The notes under the pieces: generated by a model
Told to the model about the DNA's origin: nothing
What the model saw: only the letters and a program-made list of their open reading frames with translations
Databases searched by the model: none
Position numbers and translations under genes: made by a program
In this document: positions 53,692 through 63,208 of the stretch, piece by piece
Numbering within the stretch: position 1 is the first letter of the stretch
How the letters are laid out: each line of letters begins with the position of its first letter
Source of the DNA: Sedimentimonas flavescens
GTDB taxonomy: Bacteria; Pseudomonadota; Alphaproteobacteria; Rhodobacterales; Rhodobacteraceae
DNA: 64,000 bases
Assembly: GCF_019264375.1 (NCBI RefSeq)
Contig: NZ_JAHVAI010000001.1
Coordinates: 310,001 to 374,000 of the forward strand
Reading direction: 5' to 3'

Positions 53692-54681
53692 ATGATGAGC
53701 ATGAGCCCGCACAGATCCGCGCCCCCCAAATCCCGCCGCTGGCGGGATTGGGCGCTTTTGGGCGGCCTTCTGGTGCTGGTGGGCGCAGGGCTGACGGGCC
53801 TTGCCTCAGCCACCGGCTGGGCCGAGACCTGGGCGCAGATGCGCGCCTTGCATCTATGGCAGGTCGCCGCCCTTCTGGCGCTGTCGCTATCGAATTACGT
53901 CCTGCGCGGCGCGCGCTGGCACCTGCTGGCGCGGCGTCTTGGGCTGCACACCGGGCTTTTCCAGAACCTGCGCCACTATCTGGGCGGCTTTGCCATGTCA
54001 GTCACACCCGGCCGCGTGGGCGAGTTGGTGCGGATGCGCTGGCTGCGTCGCGAGACCGGCTGGCCGGTCGAACGCAGCGCGCCGCTTGTGCTGATGGATC
54101 GCGCAGGCGATCTGGCGGTGATGGCGCTGATCCTCGCGCTTTCGGTCTCGCTCGCCGCTGGGGGCATTGCGGGGGCGGTGCCGGTTGTCATACTCGCCCT
54201 TGCCGCCGCTATCGTGGCGACCCGTCCGCGCCTGCTGAGCGCGCTGATCACGCTGAGCCACCGTGCCGTCGGGCGGTTCTCGCGCCTCTTTGCGCGGGCA
54301 CGCGGGGCGGCGCGGCTCTTGTCGCGCTTCTCGCACGGGCCGACGATGGCGCTCGCGCTGGCGCTTGGCTTTGCGGGCTGGATGGCCGAGGGCGTCTCGT
54401 TCCACCTGCTTCTGGTCTGGATGGGCGCCGATATCGGCCTGTGGAAAGCCGTCGCGATCTTTGTCTTCGCCACCCTAGCGGGCGGGCTGACGGGCGCGCC
54501 GGGCGGACTGGGCGGGGCCGAGGCCGCGATGGTCGCGCTCCTTAGCCTCGAAGGTATTCCGCTAGAGGTCTCGGTCCCCGCGACAGCAGTGATCCGACTG
54601 ACGACCCTATGGTTTGCCATCGGCATCGGCCTTATGGTGTTCCCCTTGGCCGAGCGCCTGTCACTGAAGGCCCAAGGGTAA
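53692..54681 (+). CDS. flippase-like membrane protein (LPG synthase TM / AglD2 family)
   Basis: Polytopic membrane protein (about 329 aa, eight or more hydrophobic segments) of the lysylphosphatidylglycerol-synthase TM family, which includes lipid-carrier flippase-like proteins. Signatures are LSLSNYVLRGARWHLLARRL near the N-terminus, AMSVTPGRVGELVRMRWLRR, and GAPGGLGGAEAAMVALLSLEG near the end. The start is uncertain among three nearby ATGs (53692, 53695, 53701), none with a good ribosome site. It precedes dprE1 by 4 bp, so it may move the polyprenyl-phosphate sugar made by this cassette. Confidence 0.8.
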   Translation: MMSMSPHRSAPPKSRRWRDWALLGGLLVLVGAGLTGLASATGWAETWAQMRALHLWQVAALLALSLSNYVLRGARWHLLARRLGLHTGLFQNLRHYLGGFAMSVTPGRVGELVRMRWLRRETGWPVERSAPLVLMDRAGDLAVMALILALSVSLAAGGIAGAVPVVILALAAAIVATRPRLLSALITLSHRAVGRFSRLFARARGAARLLSRFSHGPTMALALALGFAGWMAEGVSFHLLLVWMGADIGLWKAVAIFVFATLAGGLTGAPGGLGGAEAAMVALLSLEGIPLEVSVPATAVIRLTTLWFAIGIGLMVFPLAERLSLKAQG

Positions 54682-54685
54682 CACG

Positions 54686-55984
54686 ATGCGCTGGACACCG
54701 CAGGAATATGCCGGATGGGGACGCGCGCTGCGCGCCAGGGGCGAGGTTGCCCGCCCGCAGAACCCCGATGACCTTCTGGCCTCGGAAACCGCGCCCGCAT
54801 TCGGGATGCGGCGCTCTTATGGCGATGCGGCGCTGAACTCGGGCGGGCGCGCCATTGATATGAGCCAGCTTGACCGGATGCTGTCTTTCGACCCGGAGAG
54901 CGGCGAGCTGCATGTCGAGGCCGGAGCGCGCATCGGAGATATCGCAGCGGCCTTCGCACCGCGCGGCTGGCTGCCCGCCGTGATGCCAGGCACCGGCTTT
55001 GCCACCGTCGGCGGCTGCGTCGGTCAGGACGTGCATGGCAAGAACCACCATCTTCTGGGCTCATTCTCCGAGCATGTCGCGGAAATCACGCTGATCCAGC
55101 AAGGCGGCCCCGTGCGCGTCACCCCCGGATCGTCGCTGTTTCGCGCCACGGCGGGCGGGCTTGGCCAGACCGGAGTGATTACCTCGGCAAAACTGCGGAT
55201 GCGGCCCTGCAAGGGCGATGTGATGATCGTGACCGAGCGCCGCGCGGCGGATTGGGATGAACACGTCGCCCTGCTCGATGCCTCGCGCGCGACCTATACG
55301 GTGGGCTGGATCGACGCCACCGCGACGGGTGCCGCCCTTGGCCGCGGCATCGTCGAGGAAGGCGAAAGCGGCGCGGGTCTTGTGCGGCAGCGCGACAAGG
55401 CGCGGCGCGTGCCGATGGATGCCCCGCATTTCGCGCTGGCCGCGCCCATCGTGCAGGTTTTCAACTGGGCCTATTACCACCGCGTGCCCGCACGCGGCCG
55501 CACGCTGGTCAAGCCGATGGCGGATTTCTTCTTCCCGCTCGACAAGATCCACGACTGGAACCGGCTTTACGGGCGGCGCGGCTTCCACCAGTTCCAATGC
55601 GTGGTGCCGCTCGCCGCCGTGGATGAGTTGCGCGCGATGCTCGAAGAGATCGCCACCTCGGGTCTTGCCTCGCCGCTCGCGGTGCTCAAGCGCATGGGGC
55701 CGGGGCGCGCGGGTTATCTCAGCTTCCCGATGGAGGGTTACACCCTTGCCGTCGATTTCCCCAACCGCGATGCCGCGCGCGCGTTGATCAAGCGGCTTGA
55801 GGCGCGCACCGCCGACGCGGGCGGGCGGCTTTACTTCGCCAAGGACAGCCTGGCCGAGGGCGCGCAGATTCGCGCCATGTATCCCGAACTTTCCGACTGG
55901 CAGCAGGAAGTGGCGAAGGCCGACCCCGAGGGCGCCTATGTCACCGACCTGATCCGCCGACTGCAACTGAGGACCACGACATGA
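54686..55984 (+). CDS. dprE1: decaprenylphosphoryl-ribose 2-oxidase homologue (DprE1-like)
   Basis: FAD-dependent oxidoreductase (432 aa) of the VAO fold predicted to oxidise C2 of a polyprenyl-phosphate ribose. The FAD-linked motif is GGCVGQDVHGKNHHLLGSF with His117, as in mycobacterial DprE1. The lysine-bearing stretch GGRLYFAKDSLAEG matches VYLTKD of DprE1. The cysteine attacked by benzothiazinones in DprE1 is an alanine here (GYTLAVDFP). It overlaps the next gene by 4 bp. Substrate identity is inferred from homology and neighbours. Confidence 0.83.
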   Translation: MRWTPQEYAGWGRALRARGEVARPQNPDDLLASETAPAFGMRRSYGDAALNSGGRAIDMSQLDRMLSFDPESGELHVEAGARIGDIAAAFAPRGWLPAVMPGTGFATVGGCVGQDVHGKNHHLLGSFSEHVAEITLIQQGGPVRVTPGSSLFRATAGGLGQTGVITSAKLRMRPCKGDVMIVTERRAADWDEHVALLDASRATYTVGWIDATATGAALGRGIVEEGESGAGLVRQRDKARRVPMDAPHFALAAPIVQVFNWAYYHRVPARGRTLVKPMADFFFPLDKIHDWNRLYGRRGFHQFQCVVPLAAVDELRAMLEEIATSGLASPLAVLKRMGPGRAGYLSFPMEGYTLAVDFPNRDAARALIKRLEARTADAGGRLYFAKDSLAEGAQIRAMYPELSDWQQEVAKADPEGAYVTDLIRRLQLRTTT

Positions 55985-56715
55985 TGAAAAGCTGGATCGT
56001 TCTGGGCGCGGGTTCCGCCATGGCCCGCCCGCTGATCCGCCGCCTTGCCGCCGAGGGTTGCACGTTGTTCCTGGCCGGTCGCAACACCGATGCGCTGGAG
56101 CCCTTGGCCGCCGACTGCCGCCTGCGTGGCGCGCGGCTGGTCGAGGTGATGCAGTTCGATGCGCGCAACCATGGCAACTACGCGGCCCTCATCGATCGCC
56201 TCGCCGCCGAGGAGGGCGAGATCAACGCAATCTCCTTCGTCGGCTCGATGCCAGATCAATCCGCGATCGACGCCGACCCCGAGCTGATCAAGGGCGTCTT
56301 CGCCGACAGCTTCACCGGCCCGGCCACCTTCCTGCAACAGCTTGCCCCGCTGTTGGAGCAGCGCGGCTCCGGCACGATCGTCGGCATTTCCTCGGTCGCG
56401 GGGGATCGCGGTCGGCTTAACAACTACGTCTATGGCGCGGCCAAGGGGGCGTTCTCGACCTACCTGTCGGGTCTGCGCAACCGCTGCGGGCGCAAGGGCG
56501 TGCATGTGATGACGGTCAAGCCCGGCCCGGTCGACACGCCAATGACCTATGGCATGAAGATGCCCTTCATGACGACGCCCGAGGCAGTGGCCGAGGATAT
56601 CCTCAAGGGCATCCGCCGCCGCCGCAACGTGATCTACACGGCGCCGATCTGGCGGCTTGTCATGCTGGTGATCCAGCACATCCCCGAGCCGATCTTCAAG
56701 AAGATGTCCTTCTGA
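55981..56715 (+). CDS. dprE2: short-chain dehydrogenase, DprE2-like
   Basis: SDR oxidoreductase (244 aa) predicted to reduce the 2-keto intermediate to the arabinose epimer. The cofactor loop is WIVLGAGSAMARPLIRRLA, a variant of GxxxGxG typical of DprE2, and the catalytic YxxxK is NNYVYGAAKGA. The C-terminal tail is hydrophobic and basic (IWRLVMLVIQHIPEP). It overlaps dprE1 by 4 bp. Confidence 0.83.
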   Translation: MMKSWIVLGAGSAMARPLIRRLAAEGCTLFLAGRNTDALEPLAADCRLRGARLVEVMQFDARNHGNYAALIDRLAAEEGEINAISFVGSMPDQSAIDADPELIKGVFADSFTGPATFLQQLAPLLEQRGSGTIVGISSVAGDRGRLNNYVYGAAKGAFSTYLSGLRNRCGRKGVHVMTVKPGPVDTPMTYGMKMPFMTTPEAVAEDILKGIRRRRNVIYTAPIWRLVMLVIQHIPEPIFKKMSF

Positions 56716-56717
56716 GA

Positions 56718-58148
56718 TCAGCCGCCGAACCAGACCTGCCACAGGCCCGCCGCCCAAAGCATCAGGCTGAGCGTGATCATCAAAAGCCCGAGCCCGAACT
56801 TGTCGCGCAGCGCGAAAACGATCGGATCGTAATCCTGCCTGCCATACCAGCCAAGCGCGACCATCCGGATCAGCCACCAGGCAATCGGGATCAGCGCGAC
56901 CCACAAGAGCCATGTGTCGGGGTAAAGCAGCCGCGCCTGATCCGAGAACGAATAGAGGAAGAAGATCAGGAGCGCGCCGAAAACGCCGATCCCGGCTAAG
57001 TTGAGCAGATCGCCCCGGTCCGCCCGGCCATAGCCACGGCCCGGCAGGCGTTCGTCACTGGTGGCAAGGGTCAGCTCGGTCAGGCGCTTGACGCAACCAA
57101 GCGTCAGGAACACCGGGAAGACGAAGATCAGCATGTAACTTGAGACATCGACCTTTGCCGCTGCGGCGCCCGCCACCACACGGATCGTGTAAAGCCCAGC
57201 CAGCGTCGTGATATCCACCCACCGCATCCGCTTGAGTTTGAGCGAATAGGCCAGCGACGTGATCATGTACAGGATGATCACCCCCAGGAACCACGGGTTC
57301 AGCACCGCCGCGATCCCAATGGCCAGCGTCGCCAGCCCCAGACAGGTCATCATGCCCACCGATATGGGCACCGCGCCGCGCGCGAAGGGGCGGCGCTTTT
57401 TCGTGGGGTGCAGCCGGTCAGCCTCAAGATCGAGAAGATCGTTGACGATATAGATCGACGAGGCTGCCGCCGAGAACGCCACGATCCCCAGAAGGATCAG
57501 CCCGAAGGTCGCCAGATCGAAGCGGTGCGACGCGATCAGCGGCAGGAACAGCAGGATGTTCTTGACCCATTGGTGCGGCCGCAGCGCCTTGATCAACGCC
57601 TGTCCCGACCAGGCGCCGGGCAGGTTGACGATATTCTTGCCCTCCTCCGCCAGACGGCGCGAGGCAGGCACGTCGCCAACCACCAGCGCATTCTCGGCAT
57701 GGGACCAGATCGCCATATCGGTGGCTTCGTTGCCGGCATAGTCGAAGCCGCCCTCGCCGAAAGCCTCGACCAGTGCCTCGGCCTTGCGTGCGCCCTTGAG
57801 GTTGGTCACCCCGTCCGACGCGAAAACCCGTGCCGACAGGCCGTAGTGCTCGGCCAGTTCCTGCACCTGCCGCCGATCCGAGGCCGAGGCCAGAACAACC
57901 TCGCGCCCCTCGCTCGTGGAATGCAGCGCAAGCTCGGCCACCGCCGGGTTGACCGGCATCAGATCAAGGCGCAGATGCACAATGTCGGCCAGCTCGGCCT
58001 TCAGCCGCGCGGGATCGCGCAAAAATCGCAGCGCCTTGAGGGTCGCGATCGGGTCGCGCCCAAGCCCTGCCCAGAATGCCTCGAACAAAAGATCGGTTTT
58101 CAAAAATGTGCCGTCGATATCCAGCACCAACGGCTTCAGATCGGCCAT
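56718..58148 (-). CDS. HAD hydrolase fused to UbiA-type polyprenyl-phosphate phosphoribosyltransferase
   Basis: Two-domain protein (476 aa). Residues 1-190 are a HAD phosphatase (VLDIDGTFLKTD, VLASASDRRQV). Residues about 200-476 are a UbiA prenyltransferase with NDLLDLEADRLHPTKKRRPFARG and YSLKLKRMRWVDITTLAGLYTIRV, the DPPR synthase pattern. By homology it makes polyprenyl-phosphate 5-phosphoribose from PRPP and then dephosphorylates it, both steps supplied in one polypeptide, giving the substrate of DprE1. Leftward, convergent with dprE2, and 2 bp after the lytic transglycosylase gene. AAGGAT precedes the ATG. Confidence 0.82.
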   Translation of the reverse strand: MADLKPLVLDIDGTFLKTDLLFEAFWAGLGRDPIATLKALRFLRDPARLKAELADIVHLRLDLMPVNPAVAELALHSTSEGREVVLASASDRRQVQELAEHYGLSARVFASDGVTNLKGARKAEALVEAFGEGGFDYAGNEATDMAIWSHAENALVVGDVPASRRLAEEGKNIVNLPGAWSGQALIKALRPHQWVKNILLFLPLIASHRFDLATFGLILLGIVAFSAAASSIYIVNDLLDLEADRLHPTKKRRPFARGAVPISVGMMTCLGLATLAIGIAAVLNPWFLGVIILYMITSLAYSLKLKRMRWVDITTLAGLYTIRVVAGAAAAKVDVSSYMLIFVFPVFLTLGCVKRLTELTLATSDERLPGRGYGRADRGDLLNLAGIGVFGALLIFFLYSFSDQARLLYPDTWLLWVALIPIAWWLIRMVALGWYGRQDYDPIVFALRDKFGLGLLMITLSLMLWAAGLWQVWFGG

Positions 58149-58150
58149 TA

Positions 58151-59005
58151 CTATCCTTTCACGGCGAACACACAGCCGTCGGTCACAAGCTCGGGCGGCG
58201 TCAGACACAGGCCCCGGGCCACCTGCCAGGCGGCAAGCACCTTGGGCACGTAATCGCGCGTCTCGGCATAGGGCGGCACACCACCGTTGTTCTTCACCGC
58301 ATTCTCGCCGGCGTTATAAGCGGCGATCACCATCAGCGGATCGCGGTCGAATTCCTTCATCAGCCAGTCGAGATAGGCCACCCCGCCGCGGATGTTCTGC
58401 ATCGGGTCCTTGCTGTTGGCCACGTTGAAGCGCTTGGCCGTCGCGGGGATCAACTGCATAAGACCCACGGCCCCGGCCTTCGAGACCGCCTCGGCCCGAC
58501 CACCGGATTCGGTCGAGATCACCGCCAGCACCAGCGCAGGCGAAACCTCGGTGCCGATCGTGGCGGCCAGAATATCCTGCCCGTGGCGTTGCGCGATGTC
58601 CTGAAGATGCGCCAGCCGCGGTGCGCGAACAGATTGCCCGTCGGGTCCCGCGCTCAGCACATCAAGTGCCTGCGGAAAGCGCCCGTCCCGCTCATTGATG
58701 CGCGGCGAAATGGCGTTCCAGAACCAGGCATAACTGGTCGGCCCCTTGGGCTTGCCGGATGCCCCGTCACCCGTCGGCGGCGGGCGGCGCACCGGAACGA
58801 AGGGCTTGGCAGCCGCCACCTCAAGCGCGCGGCGCTGCTCTTCGGGGTCGATCTGGATGGTGATGAAGCGTTTCGTTCCCGGCGCCGGCGGCACGACGCG
58901 CTTGGGCTTGATCTCATTGACCTGGGCCGGAGCCGTTTCGGCATGCATCGGGGCGGCAGCAAGGGCCGTGCAGATCGCCACTGTCATTGCCCCTAAGATG
59001 CGCAT
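58151..59005 (-). CDS. lytic transglycosylase (SLT domain)
   Basis: Periplasmic peptidoglycan lytic transglycosylase (284 aa). The signal peptide MRILGAMTVAICTALAAAP is cut near MHA, and a Pro-rich spacer (about 25-95) precedes the SLT catalytic domain with Glu in ISTESGGRAEAV, GLMQLIPATAKRFNV and VIAAYNAGENAV. It may open the wall for the pilus or envelope machinery nearby. It is leftward and 2 bp before the HAD-UbiA gene. The start could also be the second ATG five codons on. Confidence 0.87.
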   Translation of the reverse strand: MRILGAMTVAICTALAAAPMHAETAPAQVNEIKPKRVVPPAPGTKRFITIQIDPEEQRRALEVAAAKPFVPVRRPPPTGDGASGKPKGPTSYAWFWNAISPRINERDGRFPQALDVLSAGPDGQSVRAPRLAHLQDIAQRHGQDILAATIGTEVSPALVLAVISTESGGRAEAVSKAGAVGLMQLIPATAKRFNVANSKDPMQNIRGGVAYLDWLMKEFDRDPLMVIAAYNAGENAVKNNGGVPPYAETRDYVPKVLAAWQVARGLCLTPPELVTDGCVFAVKG

Positions 59006-59353
59006 GTGCGCCACCCTGCCCCGCCCGCAATCAAGTCTTTGCAAGAGTTATTCAAGAATCTGCCGGCAAAATCCAGAAAAAGGCATCGAATAACGACGAT
59101 TCGACGGGTGATTCTGCGTTTTCGCAACAGTATCCAACTGCGTTCAAACGTGTTTTTCGTATTTTTTTTATCTGATATTTCAATTACTTAAACGCATGAT
59201 CACGAGAAGATTAACACTTCGCAAAATGACCAAAAGTCCGCCCAAATCCCGCCACGATCCGGGGGCCTTATTAGCCCATACCGCGATGCAACGGACCAAG
59301 TTCAGAGGTGGATCCAGCGTGGCGCGGAAGGAACCAGACCCAAGGAGAGACCT
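59006..59353. promoter_or_regulatory. divergent, AT-rich promoter region between the transglycosylase and flp pilins
   Basis: A 348-bp gap without a convincing gene. A markedly AT-rich stretch (59153-59195) with a run of eight T and TCTGATATTTCAATTACTTAAA stands out in this GC-rich genome. At 59237-59247 the motif TCCGCCCAAAT with CGCCA shortly after matches motifs upstream of the arabinose cassette and cpaE. AAGGAGAG just before 59354 is the pilin ribosome site. Confidence 0.6.
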
Positions 59354-59545
59354 ATGAAACTGTTCAAACTGACCCGCAAGTTCCACAACGAAGAAGACGG
59401 CGCTGTGACCGTTGACTGGGTTGTGCTGACCGCCGCCATCGTCGGCATCGGCGCCTTCGCCCTCTCGCTGATCCGCACCGAGACCCGTGAGTTGGCCACC
59501 AACATCGCCGACTACATCGGTTCGCAGAGCGTCTCGAGCCAGTAA
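59354..59545 (+). CDS. flp: Flp/Fap-type pilin, first copy
   Basis: Pre-pilin of the Tad pilus (63 aa). A basic leader (MKLFKLTRKFHNEEDG) ends at the glycine cleaved by the prepilin peptidase. The hydrophobic pilin helix AVTVDWVVLTAAIVGIG follows, then a short hydrophilic end. At +5/+6 after the cleavage glycine it has Asp-Trp instead of the usual Glu-Tyr of Flp pilins. A strong AAGGAGAG ribosome site and a downstream terminator imply a high-level single-gene message. Confidence 0.85.
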   Translation: MKLFKLTRKFHNEEDGAVTVDWVVLTAAIVGIGAFALSLIRTETRELATNIADYIGSQSVSSQ

Positions 59546-59749: not shown

Positions 59750-59959
59750 ATGACCAATGTCATCTTGAAAAGCCTACGCCGCCGGAGCCGCGACGAAGAT
59801 GGTGCGGTCACCGTCGACTGGGTCGTGCTGACGGCAGCCATCGTGGCGCTCGGGGGCGTCTTCGGAGGTATGATCGGCAAGCAGACCGGCATTCTGGGGA
59901 ATGCGATCGGCAGCTTTATCGGCTCGGTCGAGGTTCCCTCGGCGAACAGCAACGGCTGA
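59750..59959 (+). CDS. Flp/Fap-type pilin, second copy
   Basis: Second pilin-like protein (69 aa) with a longer basic leader (MTNVILKSLRRRSRDEDG) and the same core AVTVDWVVLTAAIV as the first, but a glycine-rich C-terminus. Codon use in the shared core differs, so the match is protein-level conservation, not a recent duplication. AGGAG lies about 9 bases before the ATG at 59750; a possible upstream ATG (59720) lacks a ribosome site. It may be a minor or alternative pilin. Confidence 0.78.
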   Translation: MTNVILKSLRRRSRDEDGAVTVDWVVLTAAIVALGGVFGGMIGKQTGILGNAIGSFIGSVEVPSANSNG

Positions 59960-60043: not shown

Positions 60044-60913
60044 ATGCGTCTGATCGTTGGTCTTGTTCTGGCCGCCGGCGTGGGTCTGGGAGGCGTTGCC
60101 GTTTACATGGCGCAGGGGCAGATCGCCCAGTTTCAACAGGAGCGCGACTACCTTGTCGCTGCACAGGCTAAGGCACCCAGGCTTGCCGACGTCGTCGTGG
60201 TCAAGCGCCAGCTCAAATATGGCGAGCGCTTCTCTGCGGCCGATCTCGAAGTAATCAAGGTGCAAGCCGGCAAGACGCCCGAAGGAACCTTCAGCCGCAT
60301 CTCGGCTCCGCAGGGAACCCCCGAGGCCGCGGCCGCTGTTTTCCTGGACGGCGAAACCCGCCCGCGCTCGGCGATGCGTACCTATGAGGCCAATGAACCG
60401 CTTCTGGCCAAGAAGGTTACCGACGCCGGCACGGATGCCGGGATCCTCGCGAATCTGTCGGCGGATATGCGCGCCTTCACGATCCGCGTCGATGTCAGCT
60501 CCGGCGTGTCAGGTTTCCTGCGTCCCGGCGACCTGGTTGACGTCTACTGGTCGGGCGCAATCGGCGATCAGCCGGTGACCAAGCTGATCCATCCGAACCT
60601 GCGCCTGATCGCCATCGACCAGAGCGCGGACGCCGACCGCTCCGAAGAGACCCTCATTGCACGCACCGTCACTGCGGAAGTCACCCCCGAGCAGGTGGCA
60701 GCGCTGACGCTGGCGCAATCGACCGGGCGGCTGACGCTGTCGCTGCTTGGCCGCAACAACACCGCATCGGCGGGCCCAATTGAAATCGACCGCGACAGCC
60801 TTCTCGGAATCGAGCAAGCCGAGGTGGTGAAAGTCGACGCGCCCAAGGTTTGCACCGTCAAGACCCGTCGCGGCAACGAAATCGTCGAGACCCCGATTCC
60901 CTGCACCAACTGA
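60044..60913 (+). CDS. cpaB: Tad pilus assembly protein CpaB/RcpC
   Basis: Periplasmic SAF-domain protein of the Tad secretin complex (289 aa). One N-terminal helix (MRLIVGLVLAAGVGLGGVAVY) precedes the SAF domain (VVVVKRQLKYGERFSAADLEVIKV) and the RcpC fold with FTIRVDVSSGVSGFLRPGDLVDVYW. AGAGAGG upstream; it begins 84 bp after the second pilin. Confidence 0.92.
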   Translation: MRLIVGLVLAAGVGLGGVAVYMAQGQIAQFQQERDYLVAAQAKAPRLADVVVVKRQLKYGERFSAADLEVIKVQAGKTPEGTFSRISAPQGTPEAAAAVFLDGETRPRSAMRTYEANEPLLAKKVTDAGTDAGILANLSADMRAFTIRVDVSSGVSGFLRPGDLVDVYWSGAIGDQPVTKLIHPNLRLIAIDQSADADRSEETLIARTVTAEVTPEQVAALTLAQSTGRLTLSLLGRNNTASAGPIEIDRDSLLGIEQAEVVKVDAPKVCTVKTRRGNEIVETPIPCTN

Positions 60914-61105
60914 GGTAAAAATACCCTGTTGGTGTGGGTTCCATGCAGCACAAACACACGAAACCACATGAATCTCGGCCTACAATGGGTTGATTATTGC
61001 AAAATTTCGTGAAGTGCCGCATGGTCTGGGAAAACTTGACATCAACTCACCCAAAACGGGCAACAAGACCTGTGGCAGGTGCGTGATCGGAGAGGCAGGA
61101 TCACA

Positions 61106-62533
61106 ATGAATATAAAAAGCTTTGTTAAGGCATGCCTGCTGGGGACCGCGCTTGGCGTCGCAATTCTTGCGCCTGTCAACGCGGAAACTTTGCGTGTCAT
61201 GTCGGGTTCGGCGTCGAGCCCGCTCAATGTTCCCATGAACCGCGCCGTCGTGGTGGAAAGCGATCAGCCCTTTGCTGAACTCTCCATCGCCAACCCTGGC
61301 ATTGCGGACATTACCACCCTTTCGGATCGCACGATCTATGTGCTCGGCAAGGTGCCGGGACGGACCACGATGACGATCCTCGGGCCGGACGGAAAGCTGA
61401 TCTCGAACGTCGAGGTTCAGGTGACCCCGGACATCGCCGAGTTCAAAGAGCGTCTGCAGCAGATCCTCCCCGGCGAAAAGATCGAAGTGCGCACCGCCAA
61501 TGACGGCATCGTGCTTTCGGGGACGGTGTCCTCGATCACCAAGCTCGATCGGGCGCTGGACCTGGCCCGCCGCTATGCGGGCGACCGCGTGTCGAACCTG
61601 ATGATGGTCGGCGGCACCCAGCAGGTCATGCTCAAGGTGCGCTTCGCTGAGATGCAGCGCGCCGTGTCGAAAAACCTCGCCGCCTCGCTTGGCGTGCGCG
61701 GCACGGTCGGCGGCGGCTCGGCCGAGACCGGCACGATCATCGGCACCGGCAACTTTACCGCCGAGGGCGCCCTTGAAAACGCCTTTGACAACGGCATCCT
61801 GCCGGTCGACCCGAACAAGACCGGCGCGCTTGGTCTTGGCTTCACCGCTGGCAACCTCGAATTCGCCGTTCTGCTCGAAGCCCTTGAATCCAAAGGTGTC
61901 GTGCGCACGCTGGCCGAACCGAACCTGACGGCGCTTTCTGGCCAGCAGGCCAAGTTCCTCGCGGGCGGCGAATATCCGATCCCAGTCGTAGATGACACCG
62001 GCGTGTCGATCGAATACAAACCCTTCGGCGTCGAGATGGCCTTTACGCCGCGCGTCGTCGATGGCGACCTGATCAACCTTGAAATCGCGGCCGCGGTCTC
62101 GGCGATCGACACCACGGTGACGATGTCGTCGGGCGGCTTCTCGGTCAACGCGTTCAAGCGCCGCGAAACCTCGACCACGGTCGAGATGCGCGACGGCGAG
62201 AGCTTCGCGATCGCGGGCCTGCTGCAGGATGACTTCACCGACCTGAACGACCAGATCCCGTGGCTAGGCGATGTGCCGGTGCTCGGGGCGCTGTTCCGCT
62301 CGGCCGAGTACAAGCGCGCGCAGTCGGAACTCGTGATCATCGTCACTCCGCATCTGGTCAGCCCGACCCGCGGTGAGGCCCTTGCCCTGCCGACGGATCG
62401 TGTGCGCCTGCCGTCCGAGGCAGAGCTGTTCCTCTTCGGCAAGACTGCCGGTGACAAGGCGCCGAAGACCGGTGCGGCTGCGGAAGTGGCCAAGCAGGAC
62501 TTCTCGGGCTCCTACGGCTATGTGATGGAGTGA
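61106..62533 (+). CDS. cpaC: Tad pilus secretin CpaC/RcpA
   Basis: Outer-membrane secretin (475 aa) through which the pilus exits. The signal peptide (MNIKSFVKACLLGTALGVAI...APVNA) is followed by an N-terminal BON-like/pilotin region and the secretin domain: VMLKVRFAEMQRAVSKNLAAS, VRTLAEPNLTALSGQ and IPWLGDVPVLGALFRS. It lies 192 bp after cpaB, a gap that includes TTGACA (61036-61041), so it may have its own promoter. Confidence 0.94.
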   Translation: MNIKSFVKACLLGTALGVAILAPVNAETLRVMSGSASSPLNVPMNRAVVVESDQPFAELSIANPGIADITTLSDRTIYVLGKVPGRTTMTILGPDGKLISNVEVQVTPDIAEFKERLQQILPGEKIEVRTANDGIVLSGTVSSITKLDRALDLARRYAGDRVSNLMMVGGTQQVMLKVRFAEMQRAVSKNLAASLGVRGTVGGGSAETGTIIGTGNFTAEGALENAFDNGILPVDPNKTGALGLGFTAGNLEFAVLLEALESKGVVRTLAEPNLTALSGQQAKFLAGGEYPIPVVDDTGVSIEYKPFGVEMAFTPRVVDGDLINLEIAAAVSAIDTTVTMSSGGFSVNAFKRRETSTTVEMRDGESFAIAGLLQDDFTDLNDQIPWLGDVPVLGALFRSAEYKRAQSELVIIVTPHLVSPTRGEALALPTDRVRLPSEAELFLFGKTAGDKAPKTGAAAEVAKQDFSGSYGYVME

Positions 62534-62536
62534 GCT

Positions 62537-63208
62537 ATGCAGATGCAGGATTTGAAAAAGATGCGGATTGCGGGGCTCATGGCCACTGTTCTGGTGCTTG
62601 GCGCCTGTGCGGGCGGCACGCAGCGGTTCTACGCCGAGGCGGGGTCTGAATACGACACCGGCGGCTTCGGTGACGCGACGATGAACAACACCCTGGTGAT
62701 GTCGGGTGAACGCGACTACGTGATCAGCCTCACCAAGAAGTTCGCCGCCGACGTGCAGAACACCGTCAACTTTGCTTTCGACTCGTCGGTCCTCGACGAA
62801 AGCGCCAAAGCGACCCTGCGCAAGCAGGCCGACTGGATCCGCCAATTCCCCGAGATTCGCTTCCGCGTCTACGGACATACCGACCTTGTCGGCTCGAGCG
62901 GCTACAACAAGAGCCTCGGGATGCGCCGCGCACAGGCGGTTGTCGCCTATCTCTCGTCGCAGGGCATCTCGCGCTCGCGCCTCGAGGCGGTCGTTTCCTT
63001 CGGCGAAACACAGCCCCTCGTCTTTACTCAGGCACCGAACGAGCAGAACCGCCGCACGGTGACCGAGGTTTCGGGCTTCGTGGGCAAGGGCAAACCGTCC
63101 GAACTGCACGGCAAATATGCCGAGATCATCTTCCGCGAATACGTCGGAAGCGCGGTTCCCGTTCAGGAAACCGTGCAGCCGAAAGTCGCGGGCGGCTCCG
63201 GCGGCTAA
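62537..63208 (+). CDS. OmpA-family lipoprotein in the Tad locus
   Basis: Predicted outer-membrane lipoprotein (223 aa). A lipobox (VLVLGAC) ends the signal peptide, and the OmpA peptidoglycan-binding domain (about 85-190) has VNFAFDSSVLDESA, YGHTDLVGSSGYNKSLGMRRAQAV and QNRRTV. It starts 3 bp after cpaC, taking the slot where other Tad loci have CpaD, so it may be a pilotin or anchor for the secretin. Confidence 0.92.
   Translation: MQMQDLKKMRIAGLMATVLVLGACAGGTQRFYAEAGSEYDTGGFGDATMNNTLVMSGERDYVISLTKKFAADVQNTVNFAFDSSVLDESAKATLRKQADWIRQFPEIRFRVYGHTDLVGSSGYNKSLGMRRAQAVVAYLSSQGISRSRLEAVVSFGETQPLVFTQAPNEQNRRTVTEVSGFVGKGKPSELHGKYAEIIFREYVGSAVPVQETVQPKVAGGSGG

Follow-up and report, generated by a model that had tools for sequence, protein, structure and literature searches.

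A predicted polyprenyl-phosphate arabinofuranose cassette and a candidate glycosyltransferase on opposite sides of the Tad pilus core of Sedimentimonas flavescens

Genes of the cassette

The DNA considered here is a stretch of 64,000 nucleotides of Sedimentimonas flavescens (contig NZ_JAHVAI010000001.1, positions 310,001 to 374,000), referred to below as the window. Four genes near its end (53692-58148) form a cassette that an earlier note, made from the letters alone, proposed to synthesize polyprenyl-phosphate D-arabinofuranose (D-Araf) and move it across the membrane. Open reading frames (ORFs) together with profile and PDB matches confirm the four genes as that note had named them: flippase-like, DprE1-like, DprE2-like, and a HAD-UbiA fusion. 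The first (FLIP; 53692-54681, forward strand) encodes a protein with multiple transmembrane (TM) segments that matches PF03706 (157 bits) and TIGR00374 (86.7 bits, cut-off 43.2) and is the proposed polyprenyl-phosphate-Araf flippase. The second (E1; 54686-55984, forward) encodes an FAD oxidase whose best PDB match is DprE1 (4aut, E = 5.6e-76), in an alignment that spans nearly its whole length. The third (E2; 55981-56715, forward), whose start overlaps the stop of the oxidase gene, encodes a short-chain dehydrogenase/reductase (SDR) that passes NF005489 (273.9 bits, cut-off 267) and has DprE2 as its best PDB match (21gq chain C, E = 4.3e-22). The fourth gene, HAD-UbiA (56718-58148), lies on the reverse strand; its product matches NF006088 (PRK08238; 512.8 bits, cut-off 351) and DPPR synthase (PDB 8j8j, E = 8.8e-30).

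Both proteins of the predicted epimerizing pair score under the curated cut-offs of the equivalog families (372.2 bits against 500 for DprE1, NF053785; 158.7 bits against 250 for DprE2, NF053786), and they are therefore termed DprE-like. The oxidase retains the lysine of YxAKDS and has alanine where PDB chain 4aut has the cysteine of "NVCVDFP", a residue that we take to be the benzothiazinone-binding one, Cys387 in Mycobacterium tuberculosis. Within the fusion, the NDxxDxEAD and KRxxEL motifs of the UbiA half align with 8j8j; the HAD half keeps DxDGT, yet its Pfam HAD score (24.2) is under the cut-off of 27. From its sequence, the fusion is predicted to be a polyprenyl-phosphate phosphoribosyltransferase joined to a 5'-phosphatase. 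The synthase and phosphatase of the three-component pentofuranose scheme would both be provided by HAD-UbiA, as the NF006088 match and the 8j8j alignment suggest, and the place of the flippase would be taken by the PF03706/TIGR00374 protein, a putative flippase of neither the MATE nor the SMR type. In two relatives (L374:4465-5703 in genome G105 and L367:3862-5112 in G088) the HAD half is shortened and has lost DxDGT while the UbiA half is retained; the 5'-phosphatase step would there fall to a different enzyme.

The Tad locus and a candidate transferase beyond the window

A pilus locus directly follows the cassette, as the earlier note had stated: the Tad genes (flp, cpaB, cpaC, ompA) come next and run past the end of the window. 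Between the two lies a gene for a lytic transglycosylase (SLT; 58151-59044, reverse strand; PF01464), which abuts HAD-UbiA on its upstream side and on the same strand. Since SLT is retained in Tad loci that have no cassette, it is considered a neighbor rather than a part of the cassette. Two Flp-type pilins, both candidate acceptors, are encoded on the forward strand. Pilin 1 (59354-59545) has the class motif G|AVTVDWVVLTA and a tail ending in YIGSQSVSSQ; pilin 2 (59750-59959), whose longer ORF has no Pfam match, has the same motif and a tail ending in FIGSVEVPSANSNG. The Tad core then starts with cpaB, cpaC and an ompA-like gene (60044-63208, forward; PF16976, PF00263, PF00691) and extends past the window, where two tadD-like genes, cpaA, a gene that we call GTC, a P-loop ATPase-like gene and a LytTR-domain gene follow in order. 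The ATPase-like product has a P-loop region and no Pfam match above cut-off. The LytTR-domain protein, which has predicted TM segments and is encoded past the ATPase gene, where the Tad locus ends (L255:12314-13162; window-equivalent 73313-74161), is a possible regulator.

GTC encodes a multi-TM protein of 563 amino acids. It lies on the reverse strand between cpaA and the ATPase gene (C1:380169-381860 in the same genome, equal to L255:9170-10861; window-equivalent 70169-71860), which places it about 12 kb past the cassette and at the distal end of the Tad locus. The remark of the earlier note is correct to the letter, since the window itself shows no arabinosyltransferase; however, the window ends within the Tad locus, which is why a transferase was not seen, and the same locus carries a candidate at its other end. 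The genome search for a GT-C arabinosyltransferase that the note recommended has produced GTC as a candidate, whose membership in the GT-C class is suggested by weak profile similarity.

GT-C enzymes have a catalytic acid in the first loop. GTC has about 10 TM segments, judged by hydropathy, and a conserved acidic motif in its first loop, directly after TM1: E39xD41, H44, R51, H60xD62, T65P66 and G68. In a plain alignment of 44 GTC loci, whose rows were not selected by the motif, these residues are kept in 43; the lone exception is a weak, 68-bit match in G003. A 10-row alignment, likewise not picked by the motif, agrees and has H or Y at position 38. In a 33-row alignment the invariance is partly built in, because its rows were picked by a pattern that includes part of the motif (7 of the 44 loci were lost). 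The first loop would be extracytoplasmic and catalytic. In profile-profile comparisons (hhalign), the best partner of GTC is GT87 (75%, E = 2.6e-5, residues 85-263; 60% with a smaller set). Lower values were obtained with the GT87 proteins of locus L052 (31%), a PMT set (3.7% or 48%, depending on direction), a single protein of locus L054 (1.3%), and FLIP, UbiA, TadB, CoxB and an MFS protein (0.1-1.3%). With three rows in each of the PMT and L052 sets, and a single row for L054 and for MFS, these are weak comparisons. Pfam searches gave GTC no family at cut-off, either with 7 members or with 33 (lowest E 0.028, one member to GT87), and NCBIfam gave none with 3 members. On this evidence, and on the distribution described below, GTC is probably the transferase that uses the arabinose donor.

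Gene order in relatives

Gene order was compared in 100 loci, made up of the best 80 of 314 relatives in genome contigs and 20 further ones; many are cut by contig ends, and 41 are full-length (~21 kb). The closest named relative is Sinirhodobacter sp. WL0062, with a DprE1 98% identical to that of the window. The best 80 belong to Rhodobacteraceae or to more broadly labeled metagenome-assembled genomes, one of them labeled Sphingomonadales. The usual order is topA, scoAB, FLIP, E1, E2, HAD-UbiA (reverse), SLT (reverse), flp, cpaB, cpaC. FLIP, E1 and E2 occur jointly in 92 of the 100 loci, which excludes a chance grouping; E1 and E2 are joint in all 100. Within reach of the cassette are HAD-UbiA in 57 loci, SLT in 61 and CpaB in 44. 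In three loci (L110, L133 and L118), FLIP-E1-E2 stands on the GTC side of Tad.

Six Tad loci with no cassette were examined (G019, G022, G023, G035, G065 and G136). Here the cassette and GTC are both missing while the Tad core stays: scoB adjoins SLT in four of the six, and the ATPase gene comes directly after cpaA in five; the remaining ends lie outside the stretch or were not found. No FLIP gene turned up in these loci.

Joint presence and absence of the cassette and GTC

Co-occurrence was scored in 120 Rhodobacteraceae-family genomes (completeness at least 90%, 119 genera), using E ≤ 1e-40 for DprE1 and HAD-UbiA and more than 200 bits for GTC. DprE1 was found in 41, of which 33 are type 1 (at least 50% identical to the DprE1 of the window) and 8 are 41-46% identical. 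HAD-UbiA accompanies DprE1 in 39 of these 41 genomes (it is missing in G113 and G149), compared with 9 of the 79 DprE1-negative ones (Fisher, 1.9e-20). The best HAD-UbiA of four type-1 genomes (G024, G063, G099 and G148) is just 37-43% identical and thus is not of the window's type. Six genomes (G081, G102, G120, G121, G122 and G142) have a HAD-UbiA of 35-48% identity and no DprE1 match at E 1e-40; these proteins possibly serve ribofuranose or other pentofuranose donors.

GTC is present in 37 of the 120 genomes: in all 33 of type 1 and in 4 of the 87 others (G036, G104, G134 and G144; Fisher, 1.8e-25). Weak matches in G145 (85 bits) and G153 (68 bits) were not counted. Two of the four are accounted for by contig ends: the G104 contig ends inside DprE1 and the G036 contig begins just before DprE2, and thus both genomes carry cassette genes. 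Within the genus of the window, GTC occurs in 14 of 14 type-1 genomes; among the other members, G004 has GTC and no cassette, G003 has the weak match mentioned above, and G007 and G015 have no GTC.

The Tad core separates the cassette from GTC, and the joint distribution of the two was followed across 70 genomes on a tree of CpaC. (G021 and G032 were left out; G036 and G104 were scored cassette-positive, G036 from DprE2 and HAD-UbiA at the contig edge rather than from DprE1.) GTC changes 12 times on this tree, at least 9 of the changes being forced by supported branches. Among 9 independent pairs of genomes differing in GTC, the cassette differs in the same direction in 8.0 and in the opposite direction in 0 (p = 0.0078). 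Thus, relatedness alone is insufficient to explain the linkage of the cassette with GTC.

The proposed system and its possible acceptor

From the identity of the genes, their arrangement and their joint presence and absence, we infer the following route. HAD-UbiA would make a lipid-linked ribofuranose donor precursor, and the DprE1-like and DprE2-like enzymes would epimerize it at C2, yielding polyprenyl-phosphate-D-Araf. The PF03706 protein would then flip this donor to the periplasm, where GTC would pass arabinofuranose on to an acceptor outside the cytoplasm; Flp pilin or some other component of the pilus is the likeliest one. A GT87 enzyme may lengthen the glycan, or attach further residues, in some relatives. 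Homology, architecture and co-occurrence give good support to the making of a flipped polyprenyl-phosphate D-Araf donor, as the earlier note had proposed, and the cassette very probably encodes its synthesis. The genes together would make up a full system for polyprenyl-phosphate pentofuranose glycosylation, arranged around the Tad locus and directed most likely at Flp pilin or a pilus component; this reading has about an even chance of being right, and an acceptor within the pilus is itself a matter of even balance. More tentatively, at slightly less than an even chance, GTC would be the founder of a new GT-C family dedicated to the arabinosylation of Tad (Flp) pilins, with the cassette and GTC as the two parts of a module gained or lost time and again around a conserved Tad core, making pilus arabinosylation switchable in Rhodobacteraceae.

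The earlier note had offered arabinosylation of pilin or envelope as an idea to be tested. Pilin now appears the likelier target, since GTC is placed within the Tad locus, with the cassette at the locus head, and co-occurs with the cassette, and since arabinosylation of type IV pilin has a precedent in Pseudomonas paraeruginosa (PMC12369383); however, the pilus does without the cassette in many genomes, and the parts are dispersed in some relatives. According to a 2025 paper, earlier work implicates RcpC (CpaB family) in glycosylation of Flp; the paper itself gives RcpC a structural role in the periplasm (PMC12307814).

A number of observations weigh against a pilus-directed system with GTC as its transferase. 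PDB profile searches with GTC returned no significant relative, only one chance match (E = 1.3); the region matched to GT87 excludes the proposed catalytic loop; and an AlphaFold model of the L133 GTC, built from 3 rows, has a pLDDT of 40, too low to show a GT-C structure. The pairing of GTC with the cassette has exceptions: G134 and G004 have GTC without a cassette, and G144 has it with a type-2 cassette. Locus L323 of G149 contains FLIP-E1-E2, tadD, cpaA and GTC, and no HAD-UbiA or CpaC was found there; this is best read as a deletion of the Tad core between E2 and tadD with loss of HAD-UbiA as well, although the gene set could have another use. CpaB is not within reach of the cassette in 17 of the 41 full-length loci, so that nearness to Tad is common rather than general; in two of the 17 (L110 and L133), the cassette adjoins the opposite end of the Tad locus. 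In Rhodobacter capsulatus and its near relatives the parts are dispersed, with GTC away from the Tad core; R. capsulatus itself has HAD-UbiA, SLT and Tad together at a different site from FLIP-E1-E2. Yet this group retains GTC, FLIP-E1-E2 and HAD-UbiA alike, an argument for their working as a set. Among the DprE1-positive genomes, 39 of 41 have a match to the Tad secretin, as do 66 of the 79 that are DprE1-negative (Fisher, 0.058), with six of these 66 matches distant (28-49% identity); with type 1 taken alone, the figures are 32 of 33 against 73 of 87 (0.043). Consequently, the cassette is not required for the pilus. The presence of a second transferase, GT87, in some relatives suggests that the glycan is longer or that the acceptor is a different one. 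Finally, the Flp tails failed to provide independent support. A 9-residue matrix built from 24 tails of 12 genus members and applied to other genera separated GTC-positive (29) from GTC-negative (25) genomes with an area under the curve of 0.87 (mid-pilin control, 0.53); no pilin was found in G073, G148 and G032, and the test set excluded G134, G149, G152, G157 and over half of the cassette-free genomes. However, when the tree was taken into account, 3.3 pairs were for the signal and 1.0 against (p ~0.6), and the anchor pattern had been picked after the tails were viewed. Thus, the tail signal is not used as evidence.

Alternative readings

Several of these points would be expected if the same donor and GTC served an envelope polysaccharide (lipopolysaccharide, capsule or exopolysaccharide), with the position beside Tad reflecting a shared surface function or history. 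This is a serious possibility, if on balance an improbable one. It would fit the R. capsulatus group, which retains all parts although they are dispersed from Tad, the 17 full-length loci without a nearby CpaB, a Tad system that works without the cassette in most relatives, and a GT87 partner in 21 of the 37 GTC-positive genomes; in addition, the Citrobacter systems described in PMC11127046 modify O antigen. It accounts less readily for a GTC gene embedded, in many genomes, between cpaA and the ATPase gene with the cassette at the other end of Tad, or for six cassette-free loci that are without both parts while their Tad core is intact.

That GTC is instead a Tad accessory protein and no glycosyltransferase, the donor being used by another enzyme such as GT87, is unlikely. 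The GT87 subgroup does track the system: it occurs in 21 of the 120 genomes (a 21-bit match in G094 was not counted), all of them among the GTC-positive ones (Fisher, 9.2e-14), and in 19 of 41 DprE1-positive genomes versus 2 of 79 DprE1-negative ones (5.5e-9). Moreover, GT87 genes adjoin the divergent cassette at L052, and GTC belongs to no recognized family. However, just 18 of the 33 type-1 genomes have GT87, whereas all 33 have GTC, with its GT-C-like loop motif and weak similarity to GT-C profiles. In the genome of the window, the GT87 gene (C1:202656-203950, L195), between aspS-like and carB-like genes, carries a one-base frameshift, although it is open in the relative G006. GT87 was consequently rejected as the main transferase, being frameshifted here and not found in 15 of the 33 type-1 genomes; it may be an optional second enzyme that extends the glycan, adds residues or serves another acceptor. 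A protein that we take to be PMT_2-like (L196:16848-18290) was rejected as well, since its matches, in 16 of 61 genomes, are scattered regardless of the cassette. Its gene lies about 9 kb beyond the GT87 gene, and only two pieces of it were found in the window's genome.

It is very improbable that the donor is something other than D-Araf, with the DprE-like pair making a different product or polyprenyl-phosphate-ribofuranose itself serving as donor: the missed DprE1 and DprE2 cut-offs, the HAD-UbiA proteins without DprE1 among relatives and a Citrobacter transferase that takes both ribofuranose and xylofuranose (PMC11127046) would allow it, but the pair finds its closest PDB matches in DprE1 and DprE2, both genes are joint in 100 of 100 loci, and a published survey pairs DprE1/E2 homologues with Araf (PMC11127046).

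Implications

A polyprenyl-phosphate pentofuranose system aimed at the Tad pilus, if it exists, would bring a new GT-C family, a PF03706 flippase for polyprenyl-phosphate-pentose and a sugar modification of Tad pili. The analysis replaces a loose idea with a defined gene set that includes a candidate transferase, and the genus includes the tractable R. capsulatus, which has all the parts at separate sites and gave no GT87 match. Tad pilus genes have been linked to the colonization of algal surroundings by Rhodobacterales (PMC8383342), and in Pseudomonas paraeruginosa arabinosylation of pilin gives resistance to phages that are pilus-specific (PMC12369383); a similar role is therefore testable here. 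Among the papers listed in the literature covered, which leaves most subscription journals outside, none describes arabinosylated Tad pilin or this Rhodobacteraceae cassette, and the main text of the comparative paper on Rhodobacterales Tad loci (PMC8383342) contains no words in arabin-, glycosyl- or prenyl-.

Comparison with known systems

The divergent alphaproteobacterial cassettes L052 (G003), L053 (G028) and L054 (G015) have HAD-UbiA, DprE1 and DprE2 together, as here, with a DprE1 39-46% identical to that of the window in these genomes. However, in L052 and L053 a GtrA protein adjoins E1 instead of FLIP; GT87 genes adjoin L052, and an unclassified protein with 10 TM segments adjoins L054. 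Among the 8 genomes of the 120-genome sample that have a divergent cassette, GTC is strong only in G144 and weak in G153. DprE1 homologues also occur on 65 plasmid records, at 38-46% identity among the 25 listed and in some cases beside SDR or GtrA annotations, in a search that covered DprE1 homologues only.

The mycobacterial pathway to decaprenyl-phosphate-arabinose (Rv3806c, Rv3807c, DprE1, DprE2, Emb/Aft) has a homologous synthase, oxidase and reductase, but it uses a separate phosphatase and an SMR exporter (PMC11127046).

The nearest described systems are those of Citrobacter and P. paraeruginosa. In Citrobacter youngae, ORF15, a HAD-UbiA fusion of the same architecture as the one in the window, has been shown biochemically to convert phosphoribosyl pyrophosphate to polyprenyl-phosphate-ribofuranose; with a putative flippase of the MATE type and a transferase of the GT-C type it forms a three-component system, and DprE1/E2 homologues are found in candidate systems for glycans that contain Araf (PMC11127046). 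The system proposed here resembles those of C. youngae O1 and O2 (ORF15, the MATE protein ORF14 and the GT136 enzyme ORF12) in joining donor synthesis by HAD-UbiA to a flippase and a GT-C-type transferase, and that of O2 in having an epimerase step (PMC11127046). It differs in using DprE1/E2 rather than ORF13 and a PF03706 protein rather than MATE, in lying at a Tad locus rather than in an O-antigen cluster, and in its transferase: GTC is in no Pfam family, whereas the Citrobacter enzyme is GT136.

P. paraeruginosa (Pa5196; PSPA7_6245-6251 and TfpW) offers a parallel in that its polyprenyl-phosphate-D-Araf pathway is linked with a type IV pilus and that the gene for a GT-C transferase lies beside that for the pilin (PMC12369383). 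The HAD protein of P. aeruginosa is not fused to UbiA (PMC11127046), unlike the fusion found here. In P. paraeruginosa the pilin is of type IVa, the transferase is TfpW, and biosynthesis is encoded in a genomic island away from the pilin gene, while in the system described here the pilus is of the Tad/Flp kind and the candidate transferase is GTC.

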